NCBI GenBank assembly: GCA_913009895.1 | Contig: CAJVXY010000005.1 | Location: forward strand, 66,026 to 130,025 | Direction: 5' to 3' | DNA: 64,000 nucleotides | From: an uncultured Acidiferrobacteraceae bacterium | GTDB lineage: Bacteria > Pseudomonadota > Gammaproteobacteria > Acidiferrobacterales > SZUA-150 | Shown here: positions 10,014 to 64,000 of the stretch, piece after piece | Position numbering within the stretch: the first letter of the stretch is position 1 | Layout: each line of letters opens with the position of its first letter | Program-made: the position numbers and the translations under genes | Notes under the pieces: generated by a model | Database searches by the model: none | The model's input: the letters and a program-made list of their open reading frames with translations, nothing else | What the model was told of the DNA's origin: nothing

Positions 10014-10070
10014 TATGTCTCATAGAGGAAATTAAACTAATTTACCGGGCCTGCTAATAAATTTAGGCTA

Positions 10071-18773: not shown

Positions 18774-19343
18774 TCAATCGAACTCGACGACGCCCGTCGT
18801 AAAGTGCAGGAATGCCGTGACGATCATGACATCGTTATTGTCTACCGCCTGACGTAGAATGTCTGACTGCTCGACTAATCGATTGGCGGAAAGCACCGCG
18901 TTCCGCCTTACAACGACATTGCTGTCATCCGAGCCTTCAACCGCCGGCTGGATGTACCCTGTCAAGCGATTCAGGTTCGGACCCAAATCGCCACCCTTGA
19001 TCGTTGCGGCGACCGCGCCACAGCTTTCATGTCCCATGACCACCACGAGCTTTGTCCCAAGCGTCGCTACGGCAAACTCTATGCTCGCGATACTCGATAC
19101 ATTTGCCACGTTACCAGCGACCCGCACTACAAACAGATCGCCAAGCCTGGTATCGAAAATAATCTCTGGTGGTGCCCTGCTGTCGGAACAACACAGCAGA
19201 ATGGCGAACGGCCACTGGCCCTTGAGTAATTCCTGATGACGTGATCCGACCAGGCCGGGACCTTTCGCAAGGGCATTTGAGAAGCGCTCGTTTCCCTCCT
19301 GGAGTCGCTCGAGAGCTGCTTGCGCTGATATGAGTTTTTCCAT
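18774..19343 (-). CDS. beta-class carbonic anhydrase
   Basis: Zinc enzyme interconverting CO2 and bicarbonate (189 residues). The family signature is complete: Cys52-x-Asp54-x-Arg56 in CCSDSR, and His105 with Cys108 in GHESCGAV. The RVAGNVAN segment and the SIEFAVATLG helix also fit. There is no signal peptide, so it is cytosolic. Its codons are more GC-rich than those of the neighbouring AT-rich genes, which suggests a different history. AAGGTG precedes the ATG. A CTCTGTCCCGGG copy of the regional repeat lies just past the stop. Confidence 0.9.
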   Translation of the reverse strand: MEKLISAQAALERLQEGNERFSNALAKGPGLVGSRHQELLKGQWPFAILLCCSDSRAPPEIIFDTRLGDLFVVRVAGNVANVSSIASIEFAVATLGTKLVVVMGHESCGAVAATIKGGDLGPNLNRLTGYIQPAVEGSDDSNVVVRRNAVLSANRLVEQSDILRQAVDNNDVMIVTAFLHFTTGVVEFD

Positions 19344-40182: not shown

Positions 40183-40197
40183 ATGCTGTGCCCTGCC

Positions 40198-42378: not shown

Positions 42379-42417
42379 AATTTATTTCAAAAGATTAGAT
42401 TTAGACAATTACCAATA

Positions 42418-42783
42418 CTATTTATTTGGACAGCCTTTCTTGGGCGTCAAAGACAAATAAATGGCATCGCCATCAATGCGTACAGGGTAACTGGCGGCAC
42501 AACCTTCATCGGGCGCAACGGCCTCACCGGAATCGAGATGAATCTTCCAGTCATGCAAGGGACAGGCAACCCGTTTTCCATGGACAATGCCCTGGGATAA
42601 TGGCCCGCCTTTATGCGGGCATTCATCACGCAGGGCAAATATTTCATCGTTTTCTGTCCTGAAAACTGCAATATTAAAATCACCAGCCGATACCACGCGG
42701 GCACCCAGTCTGGGTATGTCATTTATGTGGCCAATCTCGATCCACTCTGAGGATTCTGTTTCTTTTTTAACAGCTGTTTGCAT
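42418..42783 (-). CDS. nirD: nitrite reductase (NADH) small subunit
   Basis: Rieske-type [2Fe-2S] protein of 121 residues. The cluster motifs are ECPHKGGPLSQG and CPLHDWKIHLDSG (Cys-x-His ... Cys-x2-His). It is 18 bases downstream of nirB and forms the NADH-dependent nitrite reductase with it. The N-terminal 20 residues are variable, as usual. Confidence 0.92.
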   Translation of the reverse strand: MQTAVKKETESSEWIEIGHINDIPRLGARVVSAGDFNIAVFRTENDEIFALRDECPHKGGPLSQGIVHGKRVACPLHDWKIHLDSGEAVAPDEGCAASYPVRIDGDAIYLSLTPKKGCPNK

Positions 42784-42801
42784 TATCTGGCTCCTGTTGG
42801 C

Positions 42802-50284: not shown

Positions 50285-50438
50285 ATTAATAGTATATACC
50301 GATATATACCTATAAGAAACTCGTCACTACTGGATAACCTGTAAATATTTAAAACAGCAGCAACAAAGACTTAGTGTTACTTTGCCTGTTTTATAGGCAT
50401 GTCCGTACTTAACCTGGCTTGATCGTAACAGGCCGGCA

Positions 50439-50451
50439 CTCTATCATAGAG
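50439..50451. promoter_or_regulatory. palindrome over the dinB ribosome-binding region
   Basis: CTCTAT-C-ATAGAG, a perfect 6-bp inverted repeat, ends seven bases before the dinB ATG at 50458 and overlaps its purine-rich ribosome site. It could be an operator or an mRNA hairpin limiting translation. I saw no canonical CTGT-N8-ACAG LexA box in this gap; CTGT and ACAG at 50339-50357 are spaced by 11 bases. Confidence 0.5.
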
Positions 50452-50457
50452 AACAAA

Positions 50458-51732
50458 ATGAGAACATTTATGAATGTATACCAAACCACAACAGGGCCAG
50501 ACCAACACTGGCAACGGGCCATTATCCTGGTAGATATGAATGCCTTTTTTGCTTCTATTGAGCAATACGATAAACCGGAATGGCGTGGTCGGCCGGTGGC
50601 CATTACCAATGGCGAAATCGGCACCTGCATCATCACCTGCTCTTATGAAGCACGCGCCTATGGCATCAAAACGGGCATGCGCCTGAAACAGGGGCGTGAA
50701 TTGTGCCCCGATCTGATCCAGTGCCCGGCCCGCCCAAAACGTTATGCCGAAGTGTCATCGCGCATCATGTCGGCCCTGGTTGATATCACCCCTGACCTGG
50801 AGGTGTTTTCTGTTGACGAAGCCTTTCTTGATGTGACCCACTGCCAGAACCTGTTTGGTCCACCGGCACACATCGCCAAAATGGCCAAACAAAAAGTTTT
50901 TGAGAGCTCGGGCATATTGTGCTCGGTTGGCGTCAGCGGCGATAAAACCACCGCCAAGTATGCCGCCAAACTAAACAAACCAGACGGCCTCACGGTGATT
51001 CCTCCCTGGGAAGCAAAAGCACGTTTACAAAATGTGCCGGTTACCGAATTATGCGGCATCGCCAAAGGCATTGGTCGTTTCCTGGCCGATCGTGGCGTCC
51101 ATGTTTGTGGTGACATGCAAAAACTGCCCATTAGCGCACTGGGAAAACGTTTTGGCAATCCGGGCCGACGTATCTGGTATATGTGCCAGGGACAGGATCC
51201 GGAGCCACTGCAAACCCATGTTGCCGCCCCCAAGTCTATTGGTCATGGCAAGGTAGTGCCGCCCAATACCAAAAACACCGAACTGTTACTGACTTACCTG
51301 TTACACATGAGCGAAAAAGTGGCCGCACGCCTGCGCAAACATGACATGCAGGCGGGCAAATTTTTTGTCGGTGTGCTGGGCTCCGAGGGCTGGATTGGCG
51401 ACAAGTTACGGACTGCCCTGCCTACCAATGACGGCCATGTGATTTTTGATTTGTGCCGAACAATATTGCGTGATTACTGGTCTGGTGAAGGTATTCGCCA
51501 GGTACAGGTGACCGCAATTGGTCCGCGCATGATCAATAACCAGCTTGAGTTTTTTACAGATGATATTGATAACAAGGGGCACGATAAACAAGTCAGCAAC
51601 AAGGTCATGGACATGATTAACCAGCGTTATGGCGAGTTTACCCTGGCACCGGCACGATTACTGAATCGTTCAAGTATGCCCAATGTCATTGCCCCGGCCT
51701 GGAAACCCTTTGGCCATCGTCAGACTATATAA
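50458..51732 (+). CDS. dinB: Y-family DNA polymerase (DinB/Pol IV type)
   Basis: Translesion polymerase of about 424 residues. Catalytic motifs are ILVDMNAFFASIEQ (first Asp), VFSVDEAFLDV (Asp-Glu), a fingers segment TCSYEARAYGIKTGM and LCSVGVSGDKTTAKYAAKLNKPDG. The thumb has an HhH-like ELCGIAKGIGRFLADRG, followed by the little-finger domain. It is longer than E. coli Pol IV (351) and ends with a distinct C-terminal part. The start at 50458 or 50470 is uncertain. A mini-SRAP gene follows after two bases, so the pair should act together in damage tolerance. Confidence 0.92.
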   Translation: MRTFMNVYQTTTGPDQHWQRAIILVDMNAFFASIEQYDKPEWRGRPVAITNGEIGTCIITCSYEARAYGIKTGMRLKQGRELCPDLIQCPARPKRYAEVSSRIMSALVDITPDLEVFSVDEAFLDVTHCQNLFGPPAHIAKMAKQKVFESSGILCSVGVSGDKTTAKYAAKLNKPDGLTVIPPWEAKARLQNVPVTELCGIAKGIGRFLADRGVHVCGDMQKLPISALGKRFGNPGRRIWYMCQGQDPEPLQTHVAAPKSIGHGKVVPPNTKNTELLLTYLLHMSEKVAARLRKHDMQAGKFFVGVLGSEGWIGDKLRTALPTNDGHVIFDLCRTILRDYWSGEGIRQVQVTAIGPRMINNQLEFFTDDIDNKGHDKQVSNKVMDMINQRYGEFTLAPARLLNRSSMPNVIAPAWKPFGHRQTI

Positions 51733-51734
51733 TT

Positions 51735-52145
51735 ATGTGTGGCGGCGTTTATTACACCATTGAAGGCCAGGATGTGCGGGTTTATTTCCCCAATCCGTCG
51801 GCCAAATTACCGGTCAAAAAAAAGCGTGGCAAAATTGCTTTATTGCCCTGGGGTCGGCGCAAGGAACAGGCCGGTCACCTGCCGCTGGGTGGCTGGGCCA
51901 GGCTGGATTCTATTTATGCCGGACGCTGGGATCGCTGGTTCCCGGTACCGGTCAAACTGGTGGTAAAAAGTTTTATGGAAAAAGACATTGAAGGACACAG
52001 CCACTGGTTTGATCTGACCAAGGGGCAGTTTATCCAGGGACTGATTGCACGAGACGACCACGAACAGCGTATTTACGTGGTCACGGTCACCCCGGAAATG
52101 GAAGATGCGGTACACGACCGCTGGCCAAGGATATTGAGCCAATAA
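51735..52145 (+). CDS. miniature SRAP/YedK-like protein
   Basis: Protein of 136 residues that begins MCGG, with Cys2 available as the N-terminal nucleophile after Met removal, as in SRAP/HMCES proteins that form thiazolidine crosslinks to abasic sites. KIALLPWGRR corresponds to the family's WGLIP-like region. The end VHDRWPRIL (His127) matches the conserved IHxRMPxIL segment. Full-length SRAP proteins are about 220 residues, and the usual substrate-binding Glu segment (YEW) is not visible. It is two bases from dinB, giving functional support. The assignment is by motif. Confidence 0.7.
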   Translation: MCGGVYYTIEGQDVRVYFPNPSAKLPVKKKRGKIALLPWGRRKEQAGHLPLGGWARLDSIYAGRWDRWFPVPVKLVVKSFMEKDIEGHSHWFDLTKGQFIQGLIARDDHEQRIYVVTVTPEMEDAVHDRWPRILSQ

Positions 52146-52220: not shown

Positions 52221-52234
52221 TTGATCTACATCAA
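52221..52234. promoter_or_regulatory. FNR/Anr-type site
   Basis: TTGATCTACATCAA is an exact match to the FNR consensus TTGAT-N4-ATCAA. It lies 94 bases before the start of the PAS-LuxR regulator gene, so the regulator and probably the genes behind it respond to oxygen limitation. Confidence 0.7.
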
Positions 52235-52252
52235 TGATGTTATTGCATCATT
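52233..52252. promoter_or_regulatory. AATGATG-N6-CATCATT inverted repeat, site 1
   Basis: Seven-base inverted arms around a six-base centre, sharing two bases with the FNR-type site. The identical arms with the same spacing recur at 53276-53295. They may be the binding site of the LuxR-type regulator encoded at 52329, which would then autoregulate. Confidence 0.65.
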
Positions 52253-52328
52253 AGTCTACAACGGTATCCTGGGGCGGTTCTTTTGAACGAGGGTTTTGGG
52301 CGCACGGTCGTAACGTAGGAGATCTACT

Positions 52329-52955
52329 ATGACTAACCTTGCAGACTTGCTTTTTCGCACAGTAGACGGTGTTTTTGCCGTCAATGCCCAGCAGAAAATC
52401 GTTTTCTGGAATTCTGGTTGCGCCCAGTTGTTTGGCACGCCTGCCAATGAAGCCCTCGGTCGCCCGTGTTGCCAGATTGTGCGGGGAAAAGATCCCACGG
52501 GACAACCCTTTTGCGGAGGGGGATGTTGCATGTCGCGATTGGGTCATGGTGAGGATATTCACGGAACATTTCCACTGCGGGTATATAACGACAAAAACGA
52601 AGAATTGAGATTCTCGGTAAATATCGTGCTAGTACCGTCCCGCCGCAAGGATCGATGGACGTGTGTACACCTGCTTCATCGAGAAGGCGCAGCAAATACC
52701 CTTGATATGCTGGAGTACAATTCAAATAACAGCAGTCACCCGGCTCCCCTTACGATCTCATCACTGACAGCACGGGAACAGGAGATACTCCAGTTGCTGG
52801 CGGAAGGCCTTGCCGTTTCGATAATGTCCGAATTATTGAACGTCAGTCGCGTGACCGTACGGAATCACCTGCAACATATCCAGGCGAAACTCGGTGTACA
52901 TAGCCAGGCAGAAACCGTGGCCTACGCATATCGACATAACCTGGTCCAGTATTAG
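52329..52955 (+). CDS. PAS-LuxR family transcription regulator with a cysteine cluster
   Basis: Protein of 208 residues: an N-terminal PAS domain (FRTVDGVFAVNAQQKIVFWN, GTPANEALGRPC) and a C-terminal LuxR/GerE helix-turn-helix (LTAREQEILQLLAEG, then VTVRNHLQHIQAKLGVHSQAE). The PAS domain holds six Cys (31, 47, 48, 62, 66, 67), four of them within CCQIV...FCGGGCC, which could sense redox state, metal or sulfane sulfur. There is no receiver domain. GGAG precedes the ATG. It heads the sulfur gene cluster, with a DsrE-like gene 25 bases downstream. Confidence 0.85.
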   Translation: MTNLADLLFRTVDGVFAVNAQQKIVFWNSGCAQLFGTPANEALGRPCCQIVRGKDPTGQPFCGGGCCMSRLGHGEDIHGTFPLRVYNDKNEELRFSVNIVLVPSRRKDRWTCVHLLHREGAANTLDMLEYNSNNSSHPAPLTISSLTAREQEILQLLAEGLAVSIMSELLNVSRVTVRNHLQHIQAKLGVHSQAETVAYAYRHNLVQY

Positions 52956-52980
52956 CCGTAACCGCTAACAGGAGATAACA

Positions 52981-53253
52981 ATGGTAAAAAAGATTGCCGT
53001 GCTTGTCAGGGACAGACAGGGCGAAGCGCTCAGGATGGCACTTGGACTCACCCTGGTGGACGACATCATTGACGTATATATGCTTAATGGCAAGTTTACG
53101 GAGACAGAACAGGACCACCTCAATCTTGAGTTAATGAAAGAGCTGGATATGAAAATTTACTCTAACGACAAGGATAATGTGGGTGTGGAGTACCTTGCAA
53201 CCCGGGAAATAGCGCATAAACTGCCCGAGTACGATCATGTTTTGCCTTATTAA
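52981..53253 (+). CDS. DsrE-like small protein
   Basis: Protein of 90 residues with the DsrE/F-like start KKIAVLVRDRQGEALRMALG, strand LVDDIIDVYMLN and a C-terminal HKLPEYDHVLPY. It lacks cysteine, so it could not itself carry persulfide in the way active DsrE subunits do; it may be a structural partner. AGGAG lies six bases before the ATG. It is followed by the second inverted-repeat site. Confidence 0.7.
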   Translation: MVKKIAVLVRDRQGEALRMALGLTLVDDIIDVYMLNGKFTETEQDHLNLELMKELDMKIYSNDKDNVGVEYLATREIAHKLPEYDHVLPY

Positions 53254-53275
53254 CCCAAAACCACCCTCCCGCAAA

Positions 53276-53295
53276 AATGATGCAAATGCATCATT
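53276..53295. promoter_or_regulatory. AATGATG-N6-CATCATT inverted repeat, site 2
   Basis: The same arms and spacing as at 52233-52252, here part of a longer perfect palindrome of 10-bp arms (53275-53296). It lies 136 bases before the DsrE-like gene at 53432 and marks a second, probably coregulated, promoter. Confidence 0.65.
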
Positions 53296-53431
53296 TCATT
53301 GGCCAACTTCTCGTTTTAGTATTTTTCATAGTTTATAGGGGCTGGCAAAGTCGTTTGTTTGTGAGTCAGGGTTGTCTGTGCATCTGCAATAAGTCCGCAA
53401 AAGCAGGCTGTCATTGGTTACGAGGCTGAAA

Positions 53432-53734
53432 ATGAAACTGGGAATCCTGGTAAATACGGATAAACATCTTGAGCACATCCTGGGAATTTCAAAGGCCGCC
53501 GTAGCCAAAAATCACGAGACAAGCATTTTTGTCATGGATGAGGGAACGAGGTTACTGGAAAATGATTTATTTGTTGCGCTGGCAAAACTGCCAGCCGTGT
53601 CGGTAACGCTTTGCGAGCACAGTGCAAAAAGTTACGGCATTAATACAAAAAACCTATCGGAGGACATCAGTTGTGCCAGCCAGTTTAACAACGCAATGAT
53701 GAACCACGATGCTGACAGGATGATTGTTTTGTAG
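53432..53734 (+). CDS. DsrE-family protein with conserved cysteine
   Basis: Protein of 100 residues in the DsrE/DsrF fold: KLGILVNTDKHLEHILGISKAA, a strand ETSIFVMDEGTRLL, and VSVTLCEHSAKSYGI, where Cys in LCEHSAK corresponds to the sulfur-carrying Cys of the DsrE type. The start at 53432 follows GAGG. It is seven bases from the 58-residue gene behind it, suggesting a small relay complex akin to TusBCD. Confidence 0.75.
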   Translation: MKLGILVNTDKHLEHILGISKAAVAKNHETSIFVMDEGTRLLENDLFVALAKLPAVSVTLCEHSAKSYGINTKNLSEDISCASQFNNAMMNHDADRMIVL

Positions 53735-53740
53735 CGTAGT

Positions 53741-53917
53741 ATGAAAATGAAAATACTTCATATTTTAAATGATGGTCCAACCGAATTGTCCGATCAAATG
53801 ATCGATGTACATTCCGGGGAATGCCAGGTTGAGATAGTAAATCTCGGGGAAAAGGAAATCTCCTATGACGAGCTCGTCGACAAAATATTTTCCAGCGAGC
53901 GGGTCATCTCCTGGTAA
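53741..53917 (+). CDS. 58-residue protein resembling TusB/DsrH
   Basis: Short gene encoding KMKILHILNDGPTELSDQMI, then ECQVEIVNLGEKEISYDELV and the end DKIFSSERVISW. The pattern of a short strand-helix protein with a Cys near the middle and VISW at the end fits a reduced DsrH/TusB partner. It starts seven bases after the DsrE-like gene. Confidence 0.7.
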   Translation: MKMKILHILNDGPTELSDQMIDVHSGECQVEIVNLGEKEISYDELVDKIFSSERVISW

Positions 53918-54002
53918 TGGGTCACAGAATAGTTTCGAAACGTACTCGTAAGAAAGAGTAAAGACGGGAAGATGTACCACGAGAATCGGAGGTATATTAT
54001 TA

Positions 54003-55832
54003 GTGAGCGGAACCGATCAAAGTCATGTTGGTGATTCGATCCCCTGGTTGCAGTGGCGGCCGTGGGCCGGTGTTTCTTTTCCTGTTGACCACAACATTTT
54101 TGGTTTAAACAAAAGCAAGCCAGAACAAAATATCGACACGCTCCTGGTTGTCCTGGTCTCCCTGTTAACCATTACGGTATTTCTTGCGCTTTTTGTCTTT
54201 CGTGCACTGGATGACAATCGCCTCACAAGCTGGCAGTGGGTATTCGCCGGCAATGATGCGCTTAAAGTTGTGTTTATACTTGTTGTCGGTGTTTTCCTTG
54301 CCTATGTAGTTGCCAGTATTTCCCTGCCAATACGCAAACCGGCGAGCTGGCTTTTTATTTTCTCGTTTCTTGTTTCCGCACTCTCCTGGGCAGAACCAGA
54401 GGTGATCGTGGATGCATCAAGGTATTTCGTGCAAGCCAAGTCTCTCGAACTGTATGGCATTGGATATTTCTTCAAGGAGTGGGGCAACGAAATCATGGTG
54501 TGGACGGATCTACCACTCGTGCCACTACTTTACGGCCTCGTTTTTAAATTTTTCGGTGAATACAGGATCGGCATCCAGTTATTAAACAGCTTGCTGTTTT
54601 CCGGAACGGTGGTGCTGACCTACCTGGTTGGCAAGACATTATGGAATAAAACTGTTGGTTTATACGGAGGCGTGTTACTTCTCGGCATACCTTTTTTGCT
54701 TACCCAGGTACCGCTCATGCTGGTTGATGTTGCCACCATGTTCTTTTTTACCCTCGCCCTGTTCACGACTATCAAGGCCGTCAAACAAGGGGGAACGACG
54801 CTGCTGTTATTAGCATCAGTCACGATTGTGCTTGCGATGTTAACCAAGTATTCGGTTTGGCTGATGCTCAGTGTACTTCCTGTCGTTTTTGTATCTCATT
54901 TTGAATACGGGAAAAAAATTCTTCTCCGACGTGCAACCGTAATAACACTGGTCACGGTTTTCCTGATCGGGATAGTTTTACTCTGGAATTTTAATGTATT
55001 TGCAGAGCAACTGAAGTTTCTCCTGAGTTACCAGGTGCCCGGGCTTAAACGCTGGGGTGAGAGCCTGACCTCGACCTTTTTCTTCCAGGTACATCCCTTC
55101 ATAACTCTGGCCGCATTGTTTTCAACCTATGTAGCTTTCAGGAAAAAAGATCTCAAGTTTTTAATTATTGGCTGGTTACTGCTGCTCGTCATTGTGCTGG
55201 AGATCAATCGAGCGCGATATCTCGTTGTGATTTTTCCGATGCTGGTTTTGATGGCGGCCTACGGGATTAATGAAATCAGGAATGTAAAAATAAGCAGGTT
55301 TGTTGTTTCATCTACTGTCGCCTCTGCACTCGTAATAACGTTCTTCGGATACCTGCCTTTTTTACAAAACACCAGTGCAATTAACCTGAGCCAGGCTGGG
55401 AAATATCTCGATTCCATAAATACCGGGGATGGACAAGTTATCGAAGTGATAACGCTGCCACAACCAGGCTCCATCGTTAACCCCGCGGTGTCAGTTCCTG
55501 TTCTCGATTTATTTACCCAAAAGACACTCGTGTATCGCTATGACAAAGATTTGATTCAAAGGCCGCGATCGGTTGCAAAATCGCCACTAAGATTTACATG
55601 GGCATACAGGAATCCAGAATTCTTTTCTGCCGATACCAACATATCCCCAGGCGTATTAAAAAAACGTACGCCAGTGGTTATCATTTTTGGTAACACCAGC
55701 CAGGTTAATTCGCAGAGTATTCCGGATCAAATAACTAAACGGATAGAGGGTTATCGCCTGGCCAAAGAGTTAACGGTACTCGATAAAGTGTTTAAGTATC
55801 AGACACTGATTCGGGTTTACCAACCAGTATAG
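54003..55832 (+). CDS. ArnT-like/PMT_2 membrane glycosyltransferase
   Basis: Integral membrane protein of 609 residues with about 12 helices and a soluble C-terminal part. The family signature is an acidic residue in the first periplasmic loop, here in PEVIVDASRYFVQAKSLE, followed by YGIGYFFKEWGNE and PLVPLLYGLVFKFFGEYRIG. Enzymes of this type (PF13231) move a sugar from a polyprenyl phosphate to a lipid, protein or glycan on the outer face of the inner membrane. The start is GTG with GGAGG ten bases upstream. It lies between the DsrE-like genes and the thiosulfate permease. Confidence 0.82.
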   Translation: MSGTDQSHVGDSIPWLQWRPWAGVSFPVDHNIFGLNKSKPEQNIDTLLVVLVSLLTITVFLALFVFRALDDNRLTSWQWVFAGNDALKVVFILVVGVFLAYVVASISLPIRKPASWLFIFSFLVSALSWAEPEVIVDASRYFVQAKSLELYGIGYFFKEWGNEIMVWTDLPLVPLLYGLVFKFFGEYRIGIQLLNSLLFSGTVVLTYLVGKTLWNKTVGLYGGVLLLGIPFLLTQVPLMLVDVATMFFFTLALFTTIKAVKQGGTTLLLLASVTIVLAMLTKYSVWLMLSVLPVVFVSHFEYGKKILLRRATVITLVTVFLIGIVLLWNFNVFAEQLKFLLSYQVPGLKRWGESLTSTFFFQVHPFITLAALFSTYVAFRKKDLKFLIIGWLLLLVIVLEINRARYLVVIFPMLVLMAAYGINEIRNVKISRFVVSSTVASALVITFFGYLPFLQNTSAINLSQAGKYLDSINTGDGQVIEVITLPQPGSIVNPAVSVPVLDLFTQKTLVYRYDKDLIQRPRSVAKSPLRFTWAYRNPEFFSADTNISPGVLKKRTPVVIIFGNTSQVNSQSIPDQITKRIEGYRLAKELTVLDKVFKYQTLIRVYQPV

Positions 55833-55882
55833 ACTTTATCCAGTAACGACCAGTGAAACTAACCACTGCAGGAGTTGATTAA

Positions 55883-57328
55883 ATGGCTAATAATCATGTA
55901 GTTGAAAATGGTGAAAGAAAAAATCGGTTCTGGGCCTTTTTCGTATTGGGCTTTTTTGTCCTGGTTAGCGTTGGGACCTTCGCCTATAACGAATATTACA
56001 TTTATCTTTCCATTTACCTGTGGTTTGGCCTGATTTATGGACTGGCCTTGCAGTATGGCCGGTTCTGTTTTTCCTCCGCTTTCCGGGACTTGTTTGCAGT
56101 TGGCGTTGCCAGGATGGCGGTTGGCATCACCATCGCTATTGTCCTTTTTGCGTTCGTTGCTTCCCTGGTCACGGCACAGGGTTTAAGCACCTTTCATCCT
56201 GCGCCTTCGGGTATCCACGCAGTGATTGCCGGATTTATCTTTGGAATGGGAATGGTGTTTGCCGGTGGTTGTGCCTCGGGCTCTTTATATAAAACCGGCG
56301 AAGGCAATATGAATGCCCTGATCGTGGTTATATCTATCAGTGTATCCCAGGCTTTATTTGTCGATGTCGGTGGATGGGCCAACAATCTTGTCCCGGAGTC
56401 ATGGCATCACTCGGCGATTGCTAAAGGACTGCCTGCATCAATCAACGTGGGCGACGGCTGGATGGATCAGTACCTGGCTGGTTATGTCTGGAACCACCCG
56501 GTGACAACCTTCGCAAAAATGCTGGGTTGGGACAATTCCTCGGCCTTAGGGGCAATCGTGGGTAACTTCTTCCTTGGCGTCCTGGTGCCCTCGGCATTAC
56601 TGCTGGCCGTGGTCTATTTTGTCTGGTCGCGCAAGGCCTTTGTCAGGAAAAGAGTCAAGGCGGGCCAGGATAAGATGACACTGCTTGATGAAGTAAAGGG
56701 CTATTGGGCGATGTTGTCGGCCTCCAAACGAACAGCAATCGCGGGCCTGATTATTGGTGTCGCAGCAGGGCTGCATATGCTGGTACTGCAAGGGGCGCGG
56801 GTTAAATTTGGCGTCAAAAACGCAGGCGCACTACTGGAGAGAATGGGTTTCGATTACGGCATATCGGTGAACGGAACCGTCTTCGATCCCGGTTACTGGT
56901 ATGTGACAACGCAAGAGGCGCAATGGGTCGGCTGGATGCTGCAGAAGTTTACCGGTGCCAATTATATGGATAACGTATTTTTCGGTTACGTGAATGGCAT
57001 CCCCAATCCTGCCGTTAATCCAGCGGACTGGATGTCCCTCGCTACCATTGGTGGGGCCACCATCATGGCGTTGTTATACAGTGAATTTAAATTCAAGAAA
57101 CCCACCCTTGAGCTTGCCACCTGGGCGATCATCGGCGGCACATTGATGGGCATTGGTGCACGGCTGGCGCTCGGTTGCAACATCGGCGCCTTTTTTATCC
57201 GGGTCGCGAATGGTGATCCCTCCGGGTGGTTATTTGGTATCGGCATGGTTCCCGGCGCGTATGTAGCAGTTAAATTCTTTAACTGGTGGACCGAAAGAAA
57301 AATGGAAAAACAAGGATTTGGTTTGTAA
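55883..57328 (+). CDS. YeeE/YedE-family sulfur transporter (thiosulfate-permease type)
   Basis: Membrane protein of 481 residues with about 12 helices in two YeeE halves. The conserved Cys sites of TsuA-type channels are present: GRFCFSSAFRD, AGGCASGSLYKTGEGN and ALGCNIGAFF. TsuA proteins relay thiosulfate through such cysteines to a TusA partner. It is longer than TsuA of about 350 residues, like the YedE-type proteins. A tusA-like gene follows 23 bases later, giving the usual pair. AGGAG is eight bases before the ATG. Confidence 0.88.
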   Translation: MANNHVVENGERKNRFWAFFVLGFFVLVSVGTFAYNEYYIYLSIYLWFGLIYGLALQYGRFCFSSAFRDLFAVGVARMAVGITIAIVLFAFVASLVTAQGLSTFHPAPSGIHAVIAGFIFGMGMVFAGGCASGSLYKTGEGNMNALIVVISISVSQALFVDVGGWANNLVPESWHHSAIAKGLPASINVGDGWMDQYLAGYVWNHPVTTFAKMLGWDNSSALGAIVGNFFLGVLVPSALLLAVVYFVWSRKAFVRKRVKAGQDKMTLLDEVKGYWAMLSASKRTAIAGLIIGVAAGLHMLVLQGARVKFGVKNAGALLERMGFDYGISVNGTVFDPGYWYVTTQEAQWVGWMLQKFTGANYMDNVFFGYVNGIPNPAVNPADWMSLATIGGATIMALLYSEFKFKKPTLELATWAIIGGTLMGIGARLALGCNIGAFFIRVANGDPSGWLFGIGMVPGAYVAVKFFNWWTERKMEKQGFGL

Positions 57329-57351
57329 TCTAAAAAACCAAAGGAGGCAAT

Positions 57352-57603
57352 ATGGCTATGAAATTCGAGAAAGTGAATGAAGGCAATTACCTGTTGGATG
57401 TAACAGGTTATGTTTGCCCTCACCCGCAGATTTATACCAAGAAGGCACTGGAAAGAATCGAGCCAGGCGATGTTTTAGAGGTGTTTTTCGATAACCCGTC
57501 TTCCGGAGAATCGATTTCAACCATGTGTGAAAATACGGGCGATGAGATTGTCGACAAGAAAAAAGAAGGCGGTCAATTTATATGGAAGATAGAAAAATGT
57601 TAA
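57352..57603 (+). CDS. TusA-like sulfur carrier
   Basis: Protein of 83 residues in the TusA/SirA/YedF fold with the persulfide-carrying motif TGYVCPHPQIYTKKAL (CPxP) and the end GGQFIWKIEKC. Partner of the YeeE protein: it would accept sulfur from the permease and pass it to the DsrE-like proteins or an enzyme. GGAGG precedes the ATG closely. Confidence 0.9.
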   Translation: MAMKFEKVNEGNYLLDVTGYVCPHPQIYTKKALERIEPGDVLEVFFDNPSSGESISTMCENTGDEIVDKKKEGGQFIWKIEKC

Positions 57604-57621
57604 TTAGAGAGGTAACGTGCA

Positions 57622-57807
57622 ATGAAAAGTGATCTTTGGGTTGTAATTATAATTACGCTGGGTTTCATTGGATTCCTGATGGGCTACAGTCTCCCGCCCC
57701 TGGTCGAGACAGGCATGTTAACCGGTAAAGGTGGACAGGCCCAGGCGGTACAAAATCTGGACAAGGACATGGCGCAGTATTACCGCGATTTGCTTAAGGA
57801 TGAATAA
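57622..57807 (+). CDS. small single-pass membrane protein (first of a pair)
   Basis: Protein of 61 residues: an N-terminal helix (DLWVVIIITLGFIGFLMGYSL), a Gly/Gln-rich linker and a charged end AQYYRDLLKDE. It is clearly related to the next gene, sharing W-x-GFL-GYS and YYR-L. The short tail probably lies in the periplasm. Family unknown. Position between tusA and the flavoenzyme suggests a membrane-docking or assembly role. Confidence 0.75.
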   Translation: MKSDLWVVIIITLGFIGFLMGYSLPPLVETGMLTGKGGQAQAVQNLDKDMAQYYRDLLKDE

Positions 57808-57849
57808 GATAACCCAAATCTATACGACCGTGGATAAAGGAGTTAAATA

Positions 57850-58059
57850 TTGAATAATAAAATCTGGGCGTTAATAGCGCTGGTAACGGGGCTGCTGGGT
57901 TTTCTCGCTGGTTACAGTATATCGTCAACCACTGGAGTCGAGCCGGGGTTTTTTGAGGCCGTGGAGACAGGCAGTTATGGCGGTGGTGGTGGCGAAGAAA
58001 CTATCGAGGGAGTGAGTGCGGAAGACCAGGAGTACTACCGTAAATTACAGGAAGAGTGA
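57850..58059 (+). CDS. small single-pass membrane protein (second of a pair)
   Basis: Protein of 69 residues from a TTG start with AAAGGAG upstream. It has an N-terminal helix (IWALIALVTGLLGFLAGYSI), a Gly-rich linker (SYGGGGGEE) and the end DQEYYRKLQEE. It is paralogous to 57622-57807. Unknown family; the two may form a heterodimer in the membrane. Confidence 0.75.
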   Translation: MNNKIWALIALVTGLLGFLAGYSISSTTGVEPGFFEAVETGSYGGGGGEETIEGVSAEDQEYYRKLQEE

Positions 58060-58072
58060 TACCAGGGTTTCC

Positions 58073-59539
58073 ATGGACGCCACCAGTGGCCAGACAAATG
58101 ATGTGATCATCCTGGGCGCAGGCCTTGCGGGTCTCGGCGCCGGTTATGCCCTGTCCCATTCCAGTCCCGTTTCTAATCCCAAAACAAATGTTCTGGTCAT
58201 CGAGGCAGGTAAAACTGTCGGTGGCCTGGCAATAACAAAAAACCATCACGGTTTTAGATTTGATTTGGGGGGTCACCGGTTTAAAACCAGCAAGCCAAAA
58301 ATAGAACAGTTAGTCAGGAATATCCTGGGAGATGAATTACTTGTCGTCAAACGATCCAGCAAAATCCTGCTGCGCGACAAATATTTTGACTACCCGTTAA
58401 AACCGCTTAATGCCATTTCCGGTTTTGGCATTCCGACGACTGCAAAAATCATCCTGGAATATTCAGCCGGACAATTAAAAAAACCCTTCGTGAACAAAAA
58501 GATTGTTTCTCTTGAAGACTGGGTTGTCCGCCATTTCGGCCGTACCCTGTTCAATATTTATTTCAGGGAATACAGCGAAAAAGTCTGGGGCATAAATTGC
58601 AACCGGATTTGCATGGAGTGGATGGAACAACGCATTCAGAAACTTTCACTTGGCAAGGCCATTAAAAAGGCACTGTTTAAAAACAACAGCAGGGATATGC
58701 ATACCCTGGCCAGTGAATTCCTCTATCCCTCCTTGGGCATCGGCCGCATATCCGACAGGTTGAAAGAAGAAATCGAAATAAACAATCGTATACTCACCCA
58801 TTCCCGTGTTGTGCGCATAAATCATATTGGCAACAGAATTGAAAACGTGACCACTCGCTCTGGAGCGGATAACCAGACCTGTGATCACAGCGGTAATGAA
58901 TTCATATCCAGTATTCCGGTGGCCACACTGGTGCAGTTGTTACATCCAAGGCCACCGACAGAGATACTTGAAGCCGCATCAAAACTCAAATACAGGGACC
59001 TGGTCATCGTGACCATCATGCTTGACCGCGAGCGAGTCACCGACCAAACCTGGATTTATCTCCCGGAACAAGAAATTCCCTTCGGCAGGATTCACGAACC
59101 AACCAACTGGAGCAACAAAATGGCACCGCAGGGCAAGACCTTGCTGGTCACCGAATATTTTTGTTTTCGGGGTGATGAGACCTGGAGTGCCAGTGACGGA
59201 GAGCTGGCGGAAAGAACCATTAGTAATCTGATCAAGCTGGGTTTTATCAAAAGACACGAGGTATTGGACAAGGTGGTGCTGCGCATCCCCAGGGCTTACC
59301 CGTTATTCGAAGTCGGCTACACCAGGCAACTGGAAAAGATATGCAGGTATCTCGATGATTATCGCAACCTGCGCTTGATTGGACGGGGTGGCATGTTCCG
59401 GTACTACAACATGGACCATACCCTTGAGTCTGGTATCAACGCCGCCGAATCGTTAATGGCCGACAGGCCCGAGTTATTCGACCCTGAATTATTCACCCGG
59501 GCATTAAATGAATATTCCCAGACAGGCACGGGCTCATGA
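58073..59539 (+). CDS. FAD-dependent oxidoreductase (UGM/protoporphyrinogen-oxidase-like)
   Basis: Flavoenzyme of 488 residues. The dinucleotide-binding start VIILGAGLAGLGAGYALS, then VLVIEAGKTVGGLAIT, and FDLGGHRFKTSKPKIEQLV are typical of the amine-oxidase/UDP-galactopyranose-mutase-like group, as is YFREYSEKVWGINC. The late GRGGMFRYYNMDHTLESG holds the FAD end. In this group sit mutases and desaturases acting on nucleotide sugars or lipids; the reaction here is unknown. The ATG at 58073 follows AGGG by six bases. The stop overlaps the next start (ATGA). Confidence 0.85.
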   Translation: MDATSGQTNDVIILGAGLAGLGAGYALSHSSPVSNPKTNVLVIEAGKTVGGLAITKNHHGFRFDLGGHRFKTSKPKIEQLVRNILGDELLVVKRSSKILLRDKYFDYPLKPLNAISGFGIPTTAKIILEYSAGQLKKPFVNKKIVSLEDWVVRHFGRTLFNIYFREYSEKVWGINCNRICMEWMEQRIQKLSLGKAIKKALFKNNSRDMHTLASEFLYPSLGIGRISDRLKEEIEINNRILTHSRVVRINHIGNRIENVTTRSGADNQTCDHSGNEFISSIPVATLVQLLHPRPPTEILEAASKLKYRDLVIVTIMLDRERVTDQTWIYLPEQEIPFGRIHEPTNWSNKMAPQGKTLLVTEYFCFRGDETWSASDGELAERTISNLIKLGFIKRHEVLDKVVLRIPRAYPLFEVGYTRQLEKICRYLDDYRNLRLIGRGGMFRYYNMDHTLESGINAAESLMADRPELFDPELFTRALNEYSQTGTGS

Positions 59540-61005
59540 AATGTGCATTAATCCATCCGGCATGGTCGCCTGAAGAAATATTTCCTTCCAAAACCGTTGC
59601 CTCACAAATCAATTACTGGCAACCGCTGGGTACCCTGTACGTGGGCGCCAGTCTGCTCAGGGCCGGTCATGAAGTAAAATTTTTTAACGGCGCATTCATG
59701 ACCCATGAAGAATTATTACAACAGCTAAAAGAATTCAAGCCGGATTTTGCCGGTCTTTATTCGACCACCTTCGGTTGGCCAAAGGCCGTAAAAACTGCCG
59801 ATGCCATTAAACAGATTGATAAAAAAATATTTACCTGTGTCGGCGGGCCTTACCCAATCGCCATGCAGGAGCAATGTCTAAACGACGAAAGTACAAACAT
59901 TGATGCGGTGATCACGGGCGAGGCAGAACTAACTATGGTCGAGTTACTGGCCCGGTTACAGCATGGTGAAGATCTCGAAGGTGTACTGGGCGTGGTTTTC
60001 AGGCAAGGTCTGAATATCATTAAAAACCCGCCGCGGCCGTTAAACGAAAACCTGGACGCACTGCCCTTCCCCGCCCGCGAGTTGTTAGGTGATATGAATC
60101 AATATATACCACCGCCGGCAACCTACAAACGAAAACCAGTGACCATTCTGATTACCTCCCGGGGATGCGATAGACGATGTATTTTTTGTTTTCAAATAGA
60201 TAAAGAAAGAAACAGTGGCAAGCGTGGCATCCGTTTCCGTAGTGTTGAAAATGTTTTGCTGGAAATCGAACTTTGCCTCAAGCAGGGTTACCGTGAGATC
60301 AAGTTTATTGACGATACCTTTACCGCCGATTATGACCGGGCCATGGCCATATGCCGGGAGATCAAAGCGCGGCGACTTGATTTCACCTGGTTCGCCTCTG
60401 CCTGTATTAACCAGGTGGACAAAACCCTGCTCCAGGCCATGAAGGACGCGGGTTGTTGGGCCATTCTGTTTGGTGCCGATAGTGGTGTCCAGAAAACCCT
60501 GAACGCACTCCGAAAAGCCACCACGCTCGAACAGATACGACGGGATGTGCGGGCAGCGAAAGCGGTTGGATTAAAAGTCAGCACCCCGTTTATATTCGGC
60601 GCACCGGGAGAAACGTTTGCCGACGGATTAAAAACCATAGACTTTGCCATCGAGCTGGACGCCGACCTGGCAAACTTTCATGCCCTGACACCTTTCCCCG
60701 GCACTTATCTTTATGACAACCTGGACAAGTTCGGGTCGGTCTCCGGCGACCTCTCGGATCGTAACTATCAATCAGCAGCGTTTGTCCCCTACTCCATGAC
60801 CCGCGATGAAATCCTGACCCTGCGGCAACTGGCGTTTAGACGCTTTTACTCCCGGCCGGCTTTTTTACTCAGAAAAGTACTGGCACTGAGAACATTAAAC
60901 GACTGCAAAGTCGCAGTCAGGGGAATCAAGAGCCTGTTCTGGTTATGGGCAGGTAAGCGCCTTTTTCAGAAACACAAACAGGGGGCGGTAACCCCAGCTA
61001 AATGA
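59536..61005 (+). CDS. B12-binding radical SAM enzyme
   Basis: Class B radical SAM protein of 489 residues. Residues about 1-180 form a cobalamin-binding domain (WQPLGTLYVGASLLRAGHEV, FAGLYSTTFGWPKAV, TGEAELTMVELL). The radical SAM core carries the cluster motif in SRGCDRRCIFCFQ (Cys-x3-Cys-x2-Cys), then EIKFIDDTFTADYDRAM and FGAPGETFADGLKTI. The C-terminal part is basic with aromatic patches. The family includes methyltransferases acting on unactivated carbons and BchE/HpnJ-type enzymes. Co-translation with the flavoenzyme suggests a common substrate. Confidence 0.9.
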   Translation: MKCALIHPAWSPEEIFPSKTVASQINYWQPLGTLYVGASLLRAGHEVKFFNGAFMTHEELLQQLKEFKPDFAGLYSTTFGWPKAVKTADAIKQIDKKIFTCVGGPYPIAMQEQCLNDESTNIDAVITGEAELTMVELLARLQHGEDLEGVLGVVFRQGLNIIKNPPRPLNENLDALPFPARELLGDMNQYIPPPATYKRKPVTILITSRGCDRRCIFCFQIDKERNSGKRGIRFRSVENVLLEIELCLKQGYREIKFIDDTFTADYDRAMAICREIKARRLDFTWFASACINQVDKTLLQAMKDAGCWAILFGADSGVQKTLNALRKATTLEQIRRDVRAAKAVGLKVSTPFIFGAPGETFADGLKTIDFAIELDADLANFHALTPFPGTYLYDNLDKFGSVSGDLSDRNYQSAAFVPYSMTRDEILTLRQLAFRRFYSRPAFLLRKVLALRTLNDCKVAVRGIKSLFWLWAGKRLFQKHKQGAVTPAK

Positions 61006-61086
61006 GTGCTCCTAATAGTTGACTAATTGGCAACTGTTGGCTATTAATGGCAAAGTTTGCAAACGATACGCGAGAGGTGGCTGACA

Positions 61087-61515
61087 ATGAACACTGTAAC
61101 ATTAAAAAATGCCTGTCATGATTTTGCAGAAGTTGCAGCGCCTTATTTGCATATTAATGATGACAAGCATTATGAAGAAACATTGCTTCTGATAGAAAGT
61201 CTCCTGCAAGAAACCGAAGACTCTTTAGACGATCCGATGAACGCCGTCATTGAACTACTCAGCCATTCCATCGAAGCTTACGAAAACAAGGATGACGCGT
61301 TAGCTGAATTTGAGGCTCGTACAATGGGACAACCTGCGGATCTGGCTATGTTACGCGTGCTAATGGATCAGCACGATCTTGGCACAGGAGATTTGCCAGA
61401 GATTGGTTCGAAGTCGATGGTCTCCCGTGTGTTATCAGGCGAAAGAAGCCTGAATAAAAAACACATTCAAGCACTATCACCACGCTTCAAAATAAACCCA
61501 GGACTTTTTTTCTGA
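61087..61515 (+). CDS. HigA-like antitoxin/regulator without a visible toxin
   Basis: Protein of 142 residues of the COG5499 HigA-type group: an N-terminal helical domain (YEETLLLIESLLQETEDS, VIELLSHSIEAYENKD) and a C-terminal Xre-like HTH (ADLAMLRVLMDQHDL, SKSMVSRVLSGERSL). GAGAGG precedes the ATG at 61087. Such genes normally follow a HigB or similar RNase toxin, but none is present within the 80 bases before it. It may be an orphan antitoxin. It lies next to the integron attC site, in the opposite direction to the cassette genes. Confidence 0.8.
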   Translation: MNTVTLKNACHDFAEVAAPYLHINDDKHYEETLLLIESLLQETEDSLDDPMNAVIELLSHSIEAYENKDDALAEFEARTMGQPADLAMLRVLMDQHDLGTGDLPEIGSKSMVSRVLSGERSLNKKHIQALSPRFKINPGLFF

Positions 61516-61574
61516 ACTTCAGCATCAAATAAATGGTGGTCTGTCCCTGATTGCCCTTTATAACTTCTAAACAA

Positions 61575-61647
61575 AATATAACGACCAAGCTGTGCGGCGT
61601 GAACGAAGCGCAGCGTAGTGAACGTCCGAACGAGCGCCTTGTTATGT
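61575..61647 (-). other. integron attC site (downstream of the OLD-family cassette)
   Basis: On the minus strand it begins with R'' ACATAAC (+ 61641-61647) and ends with R' GTTATAT (+ 61575-61581). The inner arms, GCTCGTTCGGACG and CGCCGCACAGC, pair with extra unpaired bases (GCT-C-GT-T-CGG-A-CG), the extrahelical bases typical of attC. It lies seven bases after the stop of the OLD-family gene. R'' is the exact complement of GTTATGT, the first bases of the same cassette at 63492-63498, as the cassette mechanism requires. Confidence 0.8.
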
Positions 61648-61653
61648 GCTGCT

Positions 61654-63468
61654 TTATACATTTACCATGCCAAGAAAATCTTGGAACATATCCGTAAACT
61701 CATATCTTTCTACTCCGTCCTCGGTATATTTTTCAACTTCTCTTATTTGTTCCGCACTCATTAAAACCCAATAGGTTTCTATTACATTAGATTGCCGTAT
61801 TCCTTTCTCTTGCCCGATAAGTGCTTTAGCATCATCGTTATCATTAAACGAAAATGTACTGCCTTCAGGAAGCTGTAGGCAGTCAATATGAATGTAATTT
61901 TCAGGTTCCCTGCGCCTTGTTAAGTATGCCTTGACATCTTCATTGTGAAGCTCGGCTAGATTTCGTATGTTTTGTTCTTCTTCTCTAGTTCCCTTGTCTG
62001 AATCCAGCAAGACACAGTAAGGTATATTGAATTGATCAGCGAGTTGCATAGTCCTCCAGTGCTTGATGTTTCCGCAACCTCCTATGGGTATAATCGCAAT
62101 GCGCTTATCTTCAAATGTATGCGCTAAATGACCCGCATCCTTCAGTTGAGATGCAGTATGATTTACAAACGCAACATCACCTTTCCCCTCCACAAGGAGC
62201 AAGGCTGTAGCATTTTGAGAAATTGGATCAGCCAATATCCCAAGCGAGTTTGCTATTTTCTCGAATACTTCATCAGTTCCTAAATCAACATTTATCTCTT
62301 CACCGTCTTTTTCAATAAACCTCAGACTTTCGAGTGGAAGCAGTCCTGCAAGTGCTGGAGTGTGAGTAGTAAGAAGTATTTGGCTATTTTCTGTGTGTGA
62401 TAATTCAAGGAATGCATTAATTAACATTTCTTGGTGATCGGGGTGTTGTGATGTCTCAGGTTCCTCGAAAGCAAAAATTATTTGATTACTTTGGCTTTCA
62501 CTTCGCCTTCTTTCAGCTTCAGCCCTGAAGAAATTAAGCAAAATTAGTCTTCTGACACCGCTACCTCTTTTATTGATACTAATATTATTTTCTGACTTTA
62601 TAGAAAGCTTAAATTGTGAGTCAAACTTTGGTTCTGACTTGAAGTCAGGTATTAATTGGCTAGCCAGATCAGGTGACATTTCTTGAAGTTTTTCTAGTGT
62701 TCTATTCGCCGTTTCAACTGCTTTTTCCCTGACTTGTTCTTTAATATATTCAAGTTCGTCATGTAGTTCTCCAAGAGCTTGTTGAACAGCAATTTTCATT
62801 GGGTCAGTCACTTCTCTATCATCATCTCTGCTTTGTCTATCTGATTGAAATAACGCATAGAGAGGCAGGTATGTTTTTATCGTGTCATATACTTTCTTAG
62901 TGTCTTCCTTATCAACCAATAATTCAGTAGTGATGTTATTAAGGTCACCAAGGCTTGCCCAAATTGCCTGTCGAATAGAAGAATTTAGATTGGCATTATA
63001 TGTATCAGAATCAATATCCAGCTCATTTGCCCTTGTTCGTAACTCAACCCTTTTAAGTGTCAATAAGTCTTGCCCTTGATTAACCGAGGGATGTTCGCAA
63101 ATTATGTAAACTTTATCTTTTGGCTTTGCAGCAGTTGCCGAAAAACTCTTCTTGATTTCTAACTTGCCATTTACGTTTAGTAAATGCTCTTCCCTTAATG
63201 CGGTGGGGTTGGCAGCATCAATAACTATTTCATCTGGCAGATCAGTGAAGATACAACTAATTTCTATTTTATTGTTGTTGGCGTTAATGTTTAAGTCATC
63301 TTTCTCACAAACAACCACAGAGTTATTAAAAAATATTTCAAGTGCCTCTAAAACTGATGACTTTCCTGCATCATTTTTCCCAATAAATGCGGTTAAATTA
63401 GATAAAGGAATTATTGTTTCAGTTTTGTAACCTCTGAAGTTACTAAGCTTGACACTTTCCAATCTCAT
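61654..63468 (-). CDS. OLD-family ATPase-TOPRIM nuclease in an integron cassette
   Basis: Protein of 604 residues. The N-terminal SMC-like ATPase has Walker A GKNDAGKSS (about 30-38), signature GSGVRRLILL, Walker B IIFAFEEPETSQHP and LLTTHTP. The C-terminal TOPRIM domain has LLVEGKGD and LLDSDKG metal-site acids. This layout is that of overcoming-lysogenisation-defect nucleases and their defence relatives (for example GajA), which cleave DNA on phage attack. AAGGA precedes the ATG. The start lies about 25 bases from the cassette boundary, as usual for cassettes. A promoter inside the cassette is not obvious. Confidence 0.9.
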   Translation of the reverse strand: MRLESVKLSNFRGYKTETIIPLSNLTAFIGKNDAGKSSVLEALEIFFNNSVVVCEKDDLNINANNNKIEISCIFTDLPDEIVIDAANPTALREEHLLNVNGKLEIKKSFSATAAKPKDKVYIICEHPSVNQGQDLLTLKRVELRTRANELDIDSDTYNANLNSSIRQAIWASLGDLNNITTELLVDKEDTKKVYDTIKTYLPLYALFQSDRQSRDDDREVTDPMKIAVQQALGELHDELEYIKEQVREKAVETANRTLEKLQEMSPDLASQLIPDFKSEPKFDSQFKLSIKSENNISINKRGSGVRRLILLNFFRAEAERRRSESQSNQIIFAFEEPETSQHPDHQEMLINAFLELSHTENSQILLTTHTPALAGLLPLESLRFIEKDGEEINVDLGTDEVFEKIANSLGILADPISQNATALLLVEGKGDVAFVNHTASQLKDAGHLAHTFEDKRIAIIPIGGCGNIKHWRTMQLADQFNIPYCVLLDSDKGTREEEQNIRNLAELHNEDVKAYLTRRREPENYIHIDCLQLPEGSTFSFNDNDDAKALIGQEKGIRQSNVIETYWVLMSAEQIREVEKYTEDGVERYEFTDMFQDFLGMVNV

Positions 63469-63491
63469 GATTAGTCCTTAGTTTCTATAGT

Positions 63492-63814
63492 ACATAACGA
63501 GGCTGTAGAAAAACCTCGAAAAACTGCCTTTTTTCAGCTTTTCGAGGCAATTGGCTTTTCTCTGGTCTATCAAATAATTTGCTCATGCGTTCACATATGA
63601 CTCTATGTGAAATGTTATTGTAAGCTTTAACAGAACCATTCAAATGCTTATTTTAAGCCCTTATTTCTTCTCTAAGAAATAATTCGAAAAAATTAGAGGT
63701 TTTTCTACAGCTTCAACGCCTGCTTCACCGGCTGCCGTGAGTGGCGCGTATTTTGCGGCTTTTTTGCAAAATGCGTGACGCTTACGGCAGTCCGCGTGCA
63801 AGCAATTGTTAGCC
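63492..63814 (-). other. integron attC site split by a MITE
   Basis: On the minus strand this site begins with R'' GGCTAAC (+ 63808-63814) and ends with R' GTTATGT (+ 63492-63498). Between are AATTGCTTGCACGCGGAC, which pairs with CCGGTGAAGCA leaving two extrahelical G, and the inner stem CTGCCGT / ACGGCAG with a GCATTTTGC / GCAAAAT loop stem. Removing the MITE (63499-63714) and one copy of its direct repeat restores a normal 104-bp attC ending GGCGTTATGT. Confidence 0.8.
63499..63714. mobile_element. MITE inserted in attC
   Basis: Non-coding 216-bp element with inverted ends GAGGCTGTAGAAAAACCTC and GAAGCTGTAGAAAAACCTC (18 of 19 match), flanked by AAC (63496-63498 and 63715-63717), or AACG if one end base is assigned to the target. 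The left subterminal region contains a further hairpin, CCTCGAAAA ... TTTTCGAGG. The ends are of a type seen in IS1182-like elements (inference). It interrupts attC exactly at the R' box. Confidence 0.78.
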
Positions 63815-63823
63815 TTGTTAATA

Positions 63824-64000
63824 TCATATTACTCTTGGTTTTATTTCTTTTTTTGCTATTTTTTGCAATATGATTTCTGTGATTGAAGCTACCAAAATGA
63901 ACCCAACAAGAATGTATACGACATAACCTGATCCCCTGCTTACATATATAAGAGCAAGGATCATTGCAATTAAACTTAATATAGCGGCAATCAAAACCAA
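63824..64000 (-). CDS. partial small membrane protein, probable cassette gene
   Basis: The minus-strand frame is open from the window edge to TGA at 63824-63826. It encodes a hydrophobic segment (LVLIAAILSLIAMILALIYV), then YVVYILVGFILVASITEIIL and a basic end (KIAKKEIKPRVI). There are two membrane helices in the visible part. The stop lies ten bases before the R'' of the split attC, so it is the gene of the upstream cassette. Its start is outside the window. Confidence 0.65.
   Translation of the reverse strand: MVLIAAILSLIAMILALIYVSRGSGYVVYILVGFILVASITEIILQKIAKKEIKPRVI

Follow-up and report, generated by a model that had tools for sequence, protein, structure and literature searches.

The route by which elemental sulfur or polysulfide reaches the cytoplasm in organisms that oxidise or disproportionate sulfur has yet to be settled. 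A locus that bears on it lies at positions 52221-61005 of the window, the 64,000-nucleotide stretch of DNA analysed here, which comes from the gammaproteobacterial genome (G000, contig C5; 2.85 Mb, 90% complete) of an uncultured Acidiferrobacteraceae bacterium. The initial annotation of this locus grouped genes of a sulfur relay with those for a glycosyltransferase, a flavoenzyme and a radical SAM enzyme. Every gene of that list was confirmed, with the stated order and the + orientation, and so was the ATGA overlap at 59536. Do these genes belong together, and which part serves the other? The comparison presented here shows a known sulfur relay, the YTD cluster, within a larger unit; the identity of the relay, the linkage of the genes and the shared operator are solid. 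A glycan module serving sulfur acquisition fits better than sulfur feeding a glycan. The preferred reading, to which we give slightly less than an even chance, is that the module builds a modified polyprenyl-linked sugar and that a GT-C glycosyltransferase moves it to YG-tailed proteins or lipid near the YeeE transporter, aiding the capture of zero-valent sulfur.

The features of the locus are listed below. Domain calls on the proteins were made with Pfam and NCBIfam profiles, applying the NCBIfam cut-offs.

52221-52234, + strand: FNR/Anr-like box TTGATCTACATCAA upstream of the regulator gene, the sole match in the window (0.11 expected)
52234-52251, no strand: operator 1, ATGATGTTATTGCATCAT, before the LuxR-PAS gene
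52329-52955, + strand: PAS-LuxR regulator (GerE, 8.8e-15; PAS_9, 1.8e-6), the presumed operator binder
52981-53253, + strand: E1, DsrF-like subunit of DsrEFH type II (best alignment with the genome's own DsrF, 26/89 identical)
53277-53294, no strand: operator 2, ATGATGCAAATGCATCAT, before the relay operon, between the first and second DsrE-like genes
53432-53734, + strand: E2, DsrE subunit of DsrEFH type II (PF02635, 4.8e-6)
53741-53917, + strand: H3, DsrH/F-like third subunit, 58 amino acids (aa) ending in VISW
54003-55832, + strand: PMT_2/ArnT-like GT-C glycosyltransferase (PF13231, 1.5e-8)
55883-57328, + strand: YeeE/YedE sulfur transporter (Sulf_transp, PF04143, 1e-36)
57352-57603, + strand: TusA persulfide carrier with the motif CPHP (PF01206, 2.9e-20)
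57622-57807, + strand: SM1, small membrane protein with an N-terminal transmembrane (TM) helix and YY near the C-terminus
57850-58059, + strand: SM2, small membrane protein with the tail TGVEPGFF...TGSYGGGGG (YG motif)
58073-59539 (start approximate), + strand: flavoenzyme of the PRK07208 family, similar to UDP-galactopyranose mutase (UGM) (NF005548, 434.7 bits, cut-off 389)
59536-61005, + strand: B12-binding radical SAM enzyme, CxxxCxxC at 211-218 (profile matches)

Judged from the sequences, YeeE, TusA and the three DsrE-like genes are a YTD cluster with DsrEFH type II. This yeeE-tusA-dsrEFH type II arrangement is already known (Umezawa 2020, as cited in PMC9751629 and PMC12998232), so the description of the relay as new does not hold for this part of the locus (PMC9751629, PMC13293266). 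The hallmarks of YTD are found in the window: a YeeE/YedE transporter, a TusA with CPxP, a DsrE with the active cysteine and two DsrF/H-like subunits in synteny. Three proteins had been called DsrE-like. The one at 53432 is a genuine DsrE by its Pfam match, is 32/98 identical to the genome's own DsrE and belongs to a family with the conserved motif C.HSA. Its Cys61 aligns on the active Cys of DsrE type I; the corresponding residue of the cable-bacterium DsrE type II is Cys67 (PMC13293266). The protein at 52981 is DsrF-like without a Pfam match (its homologue is kept in 47 of the 62 loci with enough upstream DNA), and the one at 53741 is a 58-aa protein. The identity of these two to the genome's own DsrF is weak (26/89 and 17/51), and their assignment is based on that DsrF and on conserved order. 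Cys62, Cys130 and Cys432 of YeeE are conserved in the alignment. Assimilatory TsuA was rejected as an identity of YeeE (105.9 and 69.3 bits against cut-offs of 400 and 645 for NF052577 and NF041049), as was a selenium YedE/YedF (scores under the cut-offs). A search for plasmid copies of the transporter gave 32 distant matches only, all below 60% identity and none covering 80%.

YTD has been put forward to mark sulfur disproportionation, and it is commoner in thiosulfate disproportionation (PMC9751629, PMC12998232). The use of YTD or DsrEFH type II as a marker is now debated (PMC12998232, PMC13293266). In 2026, three small cable-bacterium proteins were shown to form DsrEFH type II, a complex accepting sulfur from TusA and handing it on to DsrC, and a survey of the same year found DsrEFH type II mostly alongside reductive dsrAB (PMC13293266). 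This usual but non-defining companion is missing from the window's genome, judged by gene make-up. A full dsr locus is present on another contig (L118, G000:C13:8000-27900) and encodes DsrEFH type I, DsrAB, parts of DsrMKJOP (DsrK, DsrO and a DsrP-like protein) and a DsrL-like NAD(P)-binding protein. Thus, both DsrEFH types coexist in this genome, and DsrEFH type I together with the DsrL-like protein indicates a dsr make-up of the oxidative type. The dsrA gene was found in 10/10 genomes checked.

For comparison, 80 YeeE loci were collected in a scan with one genome per species; 48 loci have enough DNA on both sides of YeeE (flank-complete). Nearly all carrier genomes are metagenome-assembled genomes (MAGs), and the closest named carrier is an Acidiferrobacteraceae MAG (L021, 95% in YeeE). 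The gene order is E1-E2-H3-GT-C-YeeE-TusA-SM1-SM2-(USP)-flavoenzyme-B12 radical SAM, after which come genes for a SPASM radical SAM, a GT2 and a secreted rhodanese. This extended order is shared by Alpha-, Beta- and Gammaproteobacteria (Pseudomonadota), Nitrospirota, Rokubacteria and Desulfobacterota. GT-C lies beside YeeE in 47 of the 48 flank-complete loci; almost always it is upstream of YeeE in the same orientation. GT-C and a radical SAM gene both accompany YeeE in 41/48, and DsrE is present as well in 38/48.

The co-occurrence was followed in 274 evenly drawn Gammaproteobacteria, seven of which encode a YeeE of the window's clade. GT-C is present in all seven and in none of the other 267 genomes, the B12 radical SAM in six (0/267 elsewhere) and the SPASM protein likewise in six, with one 38% paralogue among the other 267. 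More distant YeeE-TusA-DsrE genes were found in 4 of these 267. Twelve genomes lack a radical SAM gene at the fetched YeeE. A whole-genome search revealed an orthologue (61-69%) elsewhere in 11 of them, mostly adjoining a second YeeE-TusA copy and in several cases with GT-C, SPASM and GT2. The relay occurs without the module in nine loci (core-only), and the B12 radical SAM was not found in a whole-genome search of five core-only genomes. Since the gene order is conserved across phyla, a chance grouping is excluded; co-occurrence and the shared operator described below also rule out an accidental neighbourhood. Together with the second YeeE-TusA copies, this supports the grouping made in the initial annotation as one unit. 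In several phyla, YTD forms just the centre of a larger set of genes under common regulation.

The palindrome ATGATG-N6-CATCAT occurs at exactly three sites in the 2.85-Mb genome, all of them in this system, and a reversed-pattern control has 0 sites. The shared operator noticed initially is therefore real: two of the sites are those at 52234 and 53277, and there is one more exact site in the genome. With one mismatch allowed, 0.24 sites are expected by chance in the window. Among the loci with the regulator, 25/27 contain the operator (at most one mismatch), mostly before E2 and in the gap between GT2 and rhodanese. The few sites without a regulator are on truncated contigs (L027, L033, L036) or misplaced (L073). 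The relay operon, the regulator gene and the GT2-SPASM/rhodanese genes solidly share this operator and in this sense form one regulon; the PAS-LuxR protein probably binds it. FNR-like boxes similar to that of the window are present in L021, L023, L025, L029, L053 and L088.

The remaining genes of the unit and the third operator are located on a second contig, and unrelated DNA follows the cluster in the window:

contig C32 (L117) 15745-16755, - strand: secreted rhodanese
contig C32 (L117) 17039-17056: operator 3, between GT2-SPASM and rhodanese
contig C32 (L117) 17141-18142, + strand: GT2
contig C32 (L117) 18145-19239, + strand: SPASM radical SAM
window 61006-64000, no strand: unrelated DNA outside the system, with a helix-turn-helix-like open reading frame (ORF) and an OLD-family AAA/TOPRIM protein

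The B12 radical SAM gene of this genome is followed by unrelated DNA, which is why SPASM, GT2 and rhodanese are not found on C5. They lie near the end of C32 and are collinear with the sister genome (L021). The unrelated stretch continues into the tail of C5 (L119:9083-13291); an amino-acid permease is also apparent in it by eye. The break corresponds to either an insertion or an assembly join. A strict search found no attC integron site at the break; by eye, the tails are cassette-like.

In the GT-C protein, D137, R140 and Y141 are invariant. Its predicted structure (predicted local distance difference test, pLDDT, 85) matches ArnT best among PDB folds, followed by oligosaccharyltransferases and Dol-P-Man ALG enzymes, and D137 provides the conserved acidic residue of an ArnT-type GT-C fold. 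The PDB matches of the flavoenzyme are UDP-galactopyranose mutases (eukaryotic UGM at about 1e-19). Its identification as UGM proper was rejected (TIGR00031, 43.5 bits against a cut-off of 303.75), and it is the least constant enzyme (34/48 flank-complete loci). The B12 radical SAM enzyme is closest to AprD4, OxsB, TsrM, CysS and TokK and has weak scores with methylthiotransferases. The scores for RimO/MiaB are far under the cut-offs. HpnJ of the hopanoid side-chain pathway, where a GT2 also stands alongside, is its nearest model, but the protein is not an orthologue (TIGR03471, 201.4 bits against a cut-off of 577.6).

The radical SAM core of the SPASM protein starts right at the N-terminus. 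Predicted fold (pLDDT 85) and sequence are nearest to CteB, SkfB, SuiB and anSME. Outside the system, only paralogues of 29-32% were found in 349 genomes of the phylum. Such distant paralogues adjoin a GT2 or are in frame with it, and there is no YG peptide nearby. This pairing speaks for a substrate common to SPASM and GT2, and the missing YG peptides favour a glycan-type substrate over a pure peptide maturase. In L180 (G446:C111), a GT2 and a SPASM-like radical SAM are joined in a single open frame of ~741 aa next to a FemAB-like ORF (by eye).

The small membrane proteins SM1 and SM2 are paralogous, as they find each other by tblastn; relatives of SM2 contain GGYGAP repeats. A TM protein whose tail bears one or more motifs of the type [GSAT][GSA]YG or PAYG is encoded in each of the 67 loci that have the B12 radical SAM in cis. 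In 14 of these 67, the motif is present in 2-12 copies, with GGYGAP-like units in longer proteins. The motif is absent from the core-only loci (0/9). Five of these (L016-L020) have a TM peptide of 39-75 aa without YG, and in L171-L174 a small TM peptide after TusA was not found. In a mechanically compiled background of other small TM ORFs, the simpler motif [GSA]YG occurs in 19/196. In the YeeE tree, core and extended forms are the two sides of one deep split; the YG correlation thus represents one evolutionary contrast and is discounted accordingly. Sulfur globule proteins are rich in Gly and Tyr. The Gly-Tyr repeats and the sulfur context are alike here by description, and the proteins of this locus differ by their membrane anchor. 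In L094, the GGYG-repeat protein has as its neighbour another small membrane ORF in which DYGDSG is repeated many times (~9960-10446, at the contig end downstream of the YG protein). L043 and L049 each contain tandem YeeE copies with a small YG protein after each copy.

By homology, YeeE moves a reduced sulfur species inward, where TusA accepts the sulfur as persulfide, and DsrEFH type II passes it to DsrC and the Dsr pathway. From the whole set of genes we infer the sugar chemistry, the acceptor and the role in sulfur capture as follows. On the cytoplasmic side, a sugar may be loaded onto polyprenyl phosphate by GT2. This polyprenyl-linked sugar may be modified by both radical SAM enzymes (SPASM and B12) together with the UGM-like flavoenzyme, and the ArnT-like GT-C would transfer it on the outer face of the membrane. 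The likeliest acceptors would be the YG-tailed SM1/SM2 beside YeeE or lipid located there. Together with the secreted rhodanese, the product may help to capture zero-valent sulfur or polysulfide and present it to YeeE. The PAS-LuxR protein, acting at ATGATG-N6-CATCAT with an FNR-type input on its own gene, would switch the set as one regulon. The proposed logic is shared with the ArnC/ArnT (Und-P-L-Ara4N) pathway, namely GT2, cytoplasmic sugar modification and transfer by an ArnT-like GT-C; here, radical SAM and UGM-like modifiers would replace ArnA/B/D and the GT-C is 12-13% identical to ArnT. A more novel reading, a sulfur-import device of a new kind, is doubtful, although conceivable: once modified by both radical SAM enzymes and glycosylated, the YG-tailed peptide beside YeeE would be dedicated to binding or relaying zero-valent sulfur outside the cytoplasm and would thereby supply TusA-DsrEFH-DsrC in uncultured lithotrophs of several phyla.

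Several observations weigh against the preferred reading. The flavoenzyme is absent near YeeE in about one third of the loci, and in genome G061 the whole-genome search did not find a radical SAM orthologue. A Nitrospirota group without the radical SAM in cis still has the PAYG variant, and the difference in YG between core and extended loci comes down in essence to the single split in the YeeE tree. Lipid A and other lipids can likewise be targets of GT-C enzymes, so that the case for the YG tail as acceptor is one of correlation only. The same YG proteins could instead be matured like ribosomally synthesised and post-translationally modified peptides (RiPPs). The SPASM and B12 radical SAM enzymes would then alter Tyr/Gly of (G)GYG in the cytoplasm and GT2/GT-C would decorate the peptide; the modified product, anchored in the membrane next to YeeE, would bind or relay sulfur. 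The resemblance of the SPASM protein to the peptide- and protein-modifying CteB, SkfB, SuiB and anSME agrees with this, as does a small ORF just downstream of TusA with 1-12 motif copies. A precursor gene with a conserved or repeated core motif is thereby at hand, with YG/GGYGAP tails in every locus carrying the radical SAM in cis and in none of the core loci. A membrane anchor is unusual for such precursors, however, the distant SPASM paralogues pair with GT2 and not with YG peptides, and the YG support is one phylogenetic contrast. This explanation is considered unlikely, though it is the strongest of the alternatives.

The ArnT-like, GT2 and UGM-like genes, and the distant GT2-SPASM fusion beside a FemAB-like gene, would also suit a glycolipid or exopolysaccharide at the cell surface that serves to attach to solid sulfur and does not directly touch YeeE or the SM proteins. 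The neighbourhoods have no recurring genes for a polymerase, a flippase or export, however, and the nearly constant position of GT-C upstream of YeeE speaks against such independence, which makes this explanation improbable. In the initial annotation, sulfur flows in the opposite direction: the module would use imported sulfur to modify a membrane lipid, an isoprenoid or a glycan, by thiolation or in another sulfur-based way. The physical linkage and co-regulation of the sulfur carriers with radical SAM and glycosyltransferase genes are in line with this idea. GT-C enzymes, however, are expected to act on the membrane side opposite to TusA and DsrE. The B12 radical SAM is only weakly methylthiotransferase-like, the relay occurs without the module, dsrA accompanies it in all genomes checked and the window's genome has the full dsr locus. 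Furthermore, the homologous relay delivers to DsrC (PMC13293266). This reading is not supported and is quite improbable.

Other YeeE transporters with a TusA-like partner are TsuA/TsuB (YeeE/YeeD) and the SoxT importers (PMC11073785, PMC11582611). The YeeE of the window differs from TsuA by its scores under the cut-offs and by its dissimilatory context. Known YTD clusters share with the window YeeE/YedE, TusA, the active-Cys DsrE, two DsrF/H-type subunits and synteny. The window's genome adds GT-C, the flavoenzyme, B12 and SPASM radical SAMs, GT2, two small membrane proteins, the secreted rhodanese, the PAS-LuxR regulon and DsrEFH type I elsewhere in the genome. Mycofactocin and other SPASM peptide systems are alike in the SPASM enzyme, a GT2 (MftF model, 84 bits) and a small Tyr-containing peptide; here, all profile scores are under the cut-offs and the peptide is membrane-anchored. 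The fixed extension of YTD by GT-C, flavoenzyme, B12 radical SAM, SPASM, GT2 and secreted rhodanese appears to be undescribed. The term "glycosyl" is absent from the YTD papers that were searched for it. In a literature search outside of which supplements and subscription papers lay, no description was found of YeeE/YedE-TusA-DsrE with a glycosyltransferase or radical SAM, nor of GGYG with sulfur globules or radical SAM. The added enzymes and the peptide point to a so far unrecognised structure at the outer face of the membrane. The module genes, the peptide, the lipids and the operator offer concrete handles, the last for finding the rest of the regulon.

Some further genes were observed in the surroundings. 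A YeiH-like protein of a putative sulfate exporter family (~550 aa) recurs near YeeE in L037, L038, L040, L041, L060, L068 and L075 and also in L080, L082, L084, L093, L095 and L096. A Y-family DNA polymerase gene and a 136-aa ORF lie just upstream of the cluster (window 50419-52145) and adjoin it only in the same-genus relative. On the - strand of the window (38332-45237), a molybdopterin oxidoreductase, a fused Fer4/DmsC-like protein and an 811-aa NirB-like nitrite/sulfite reductase are encoded consecutively. A similar NirB-like match is present in the sister genome (G001) on the same contig as its cluster.

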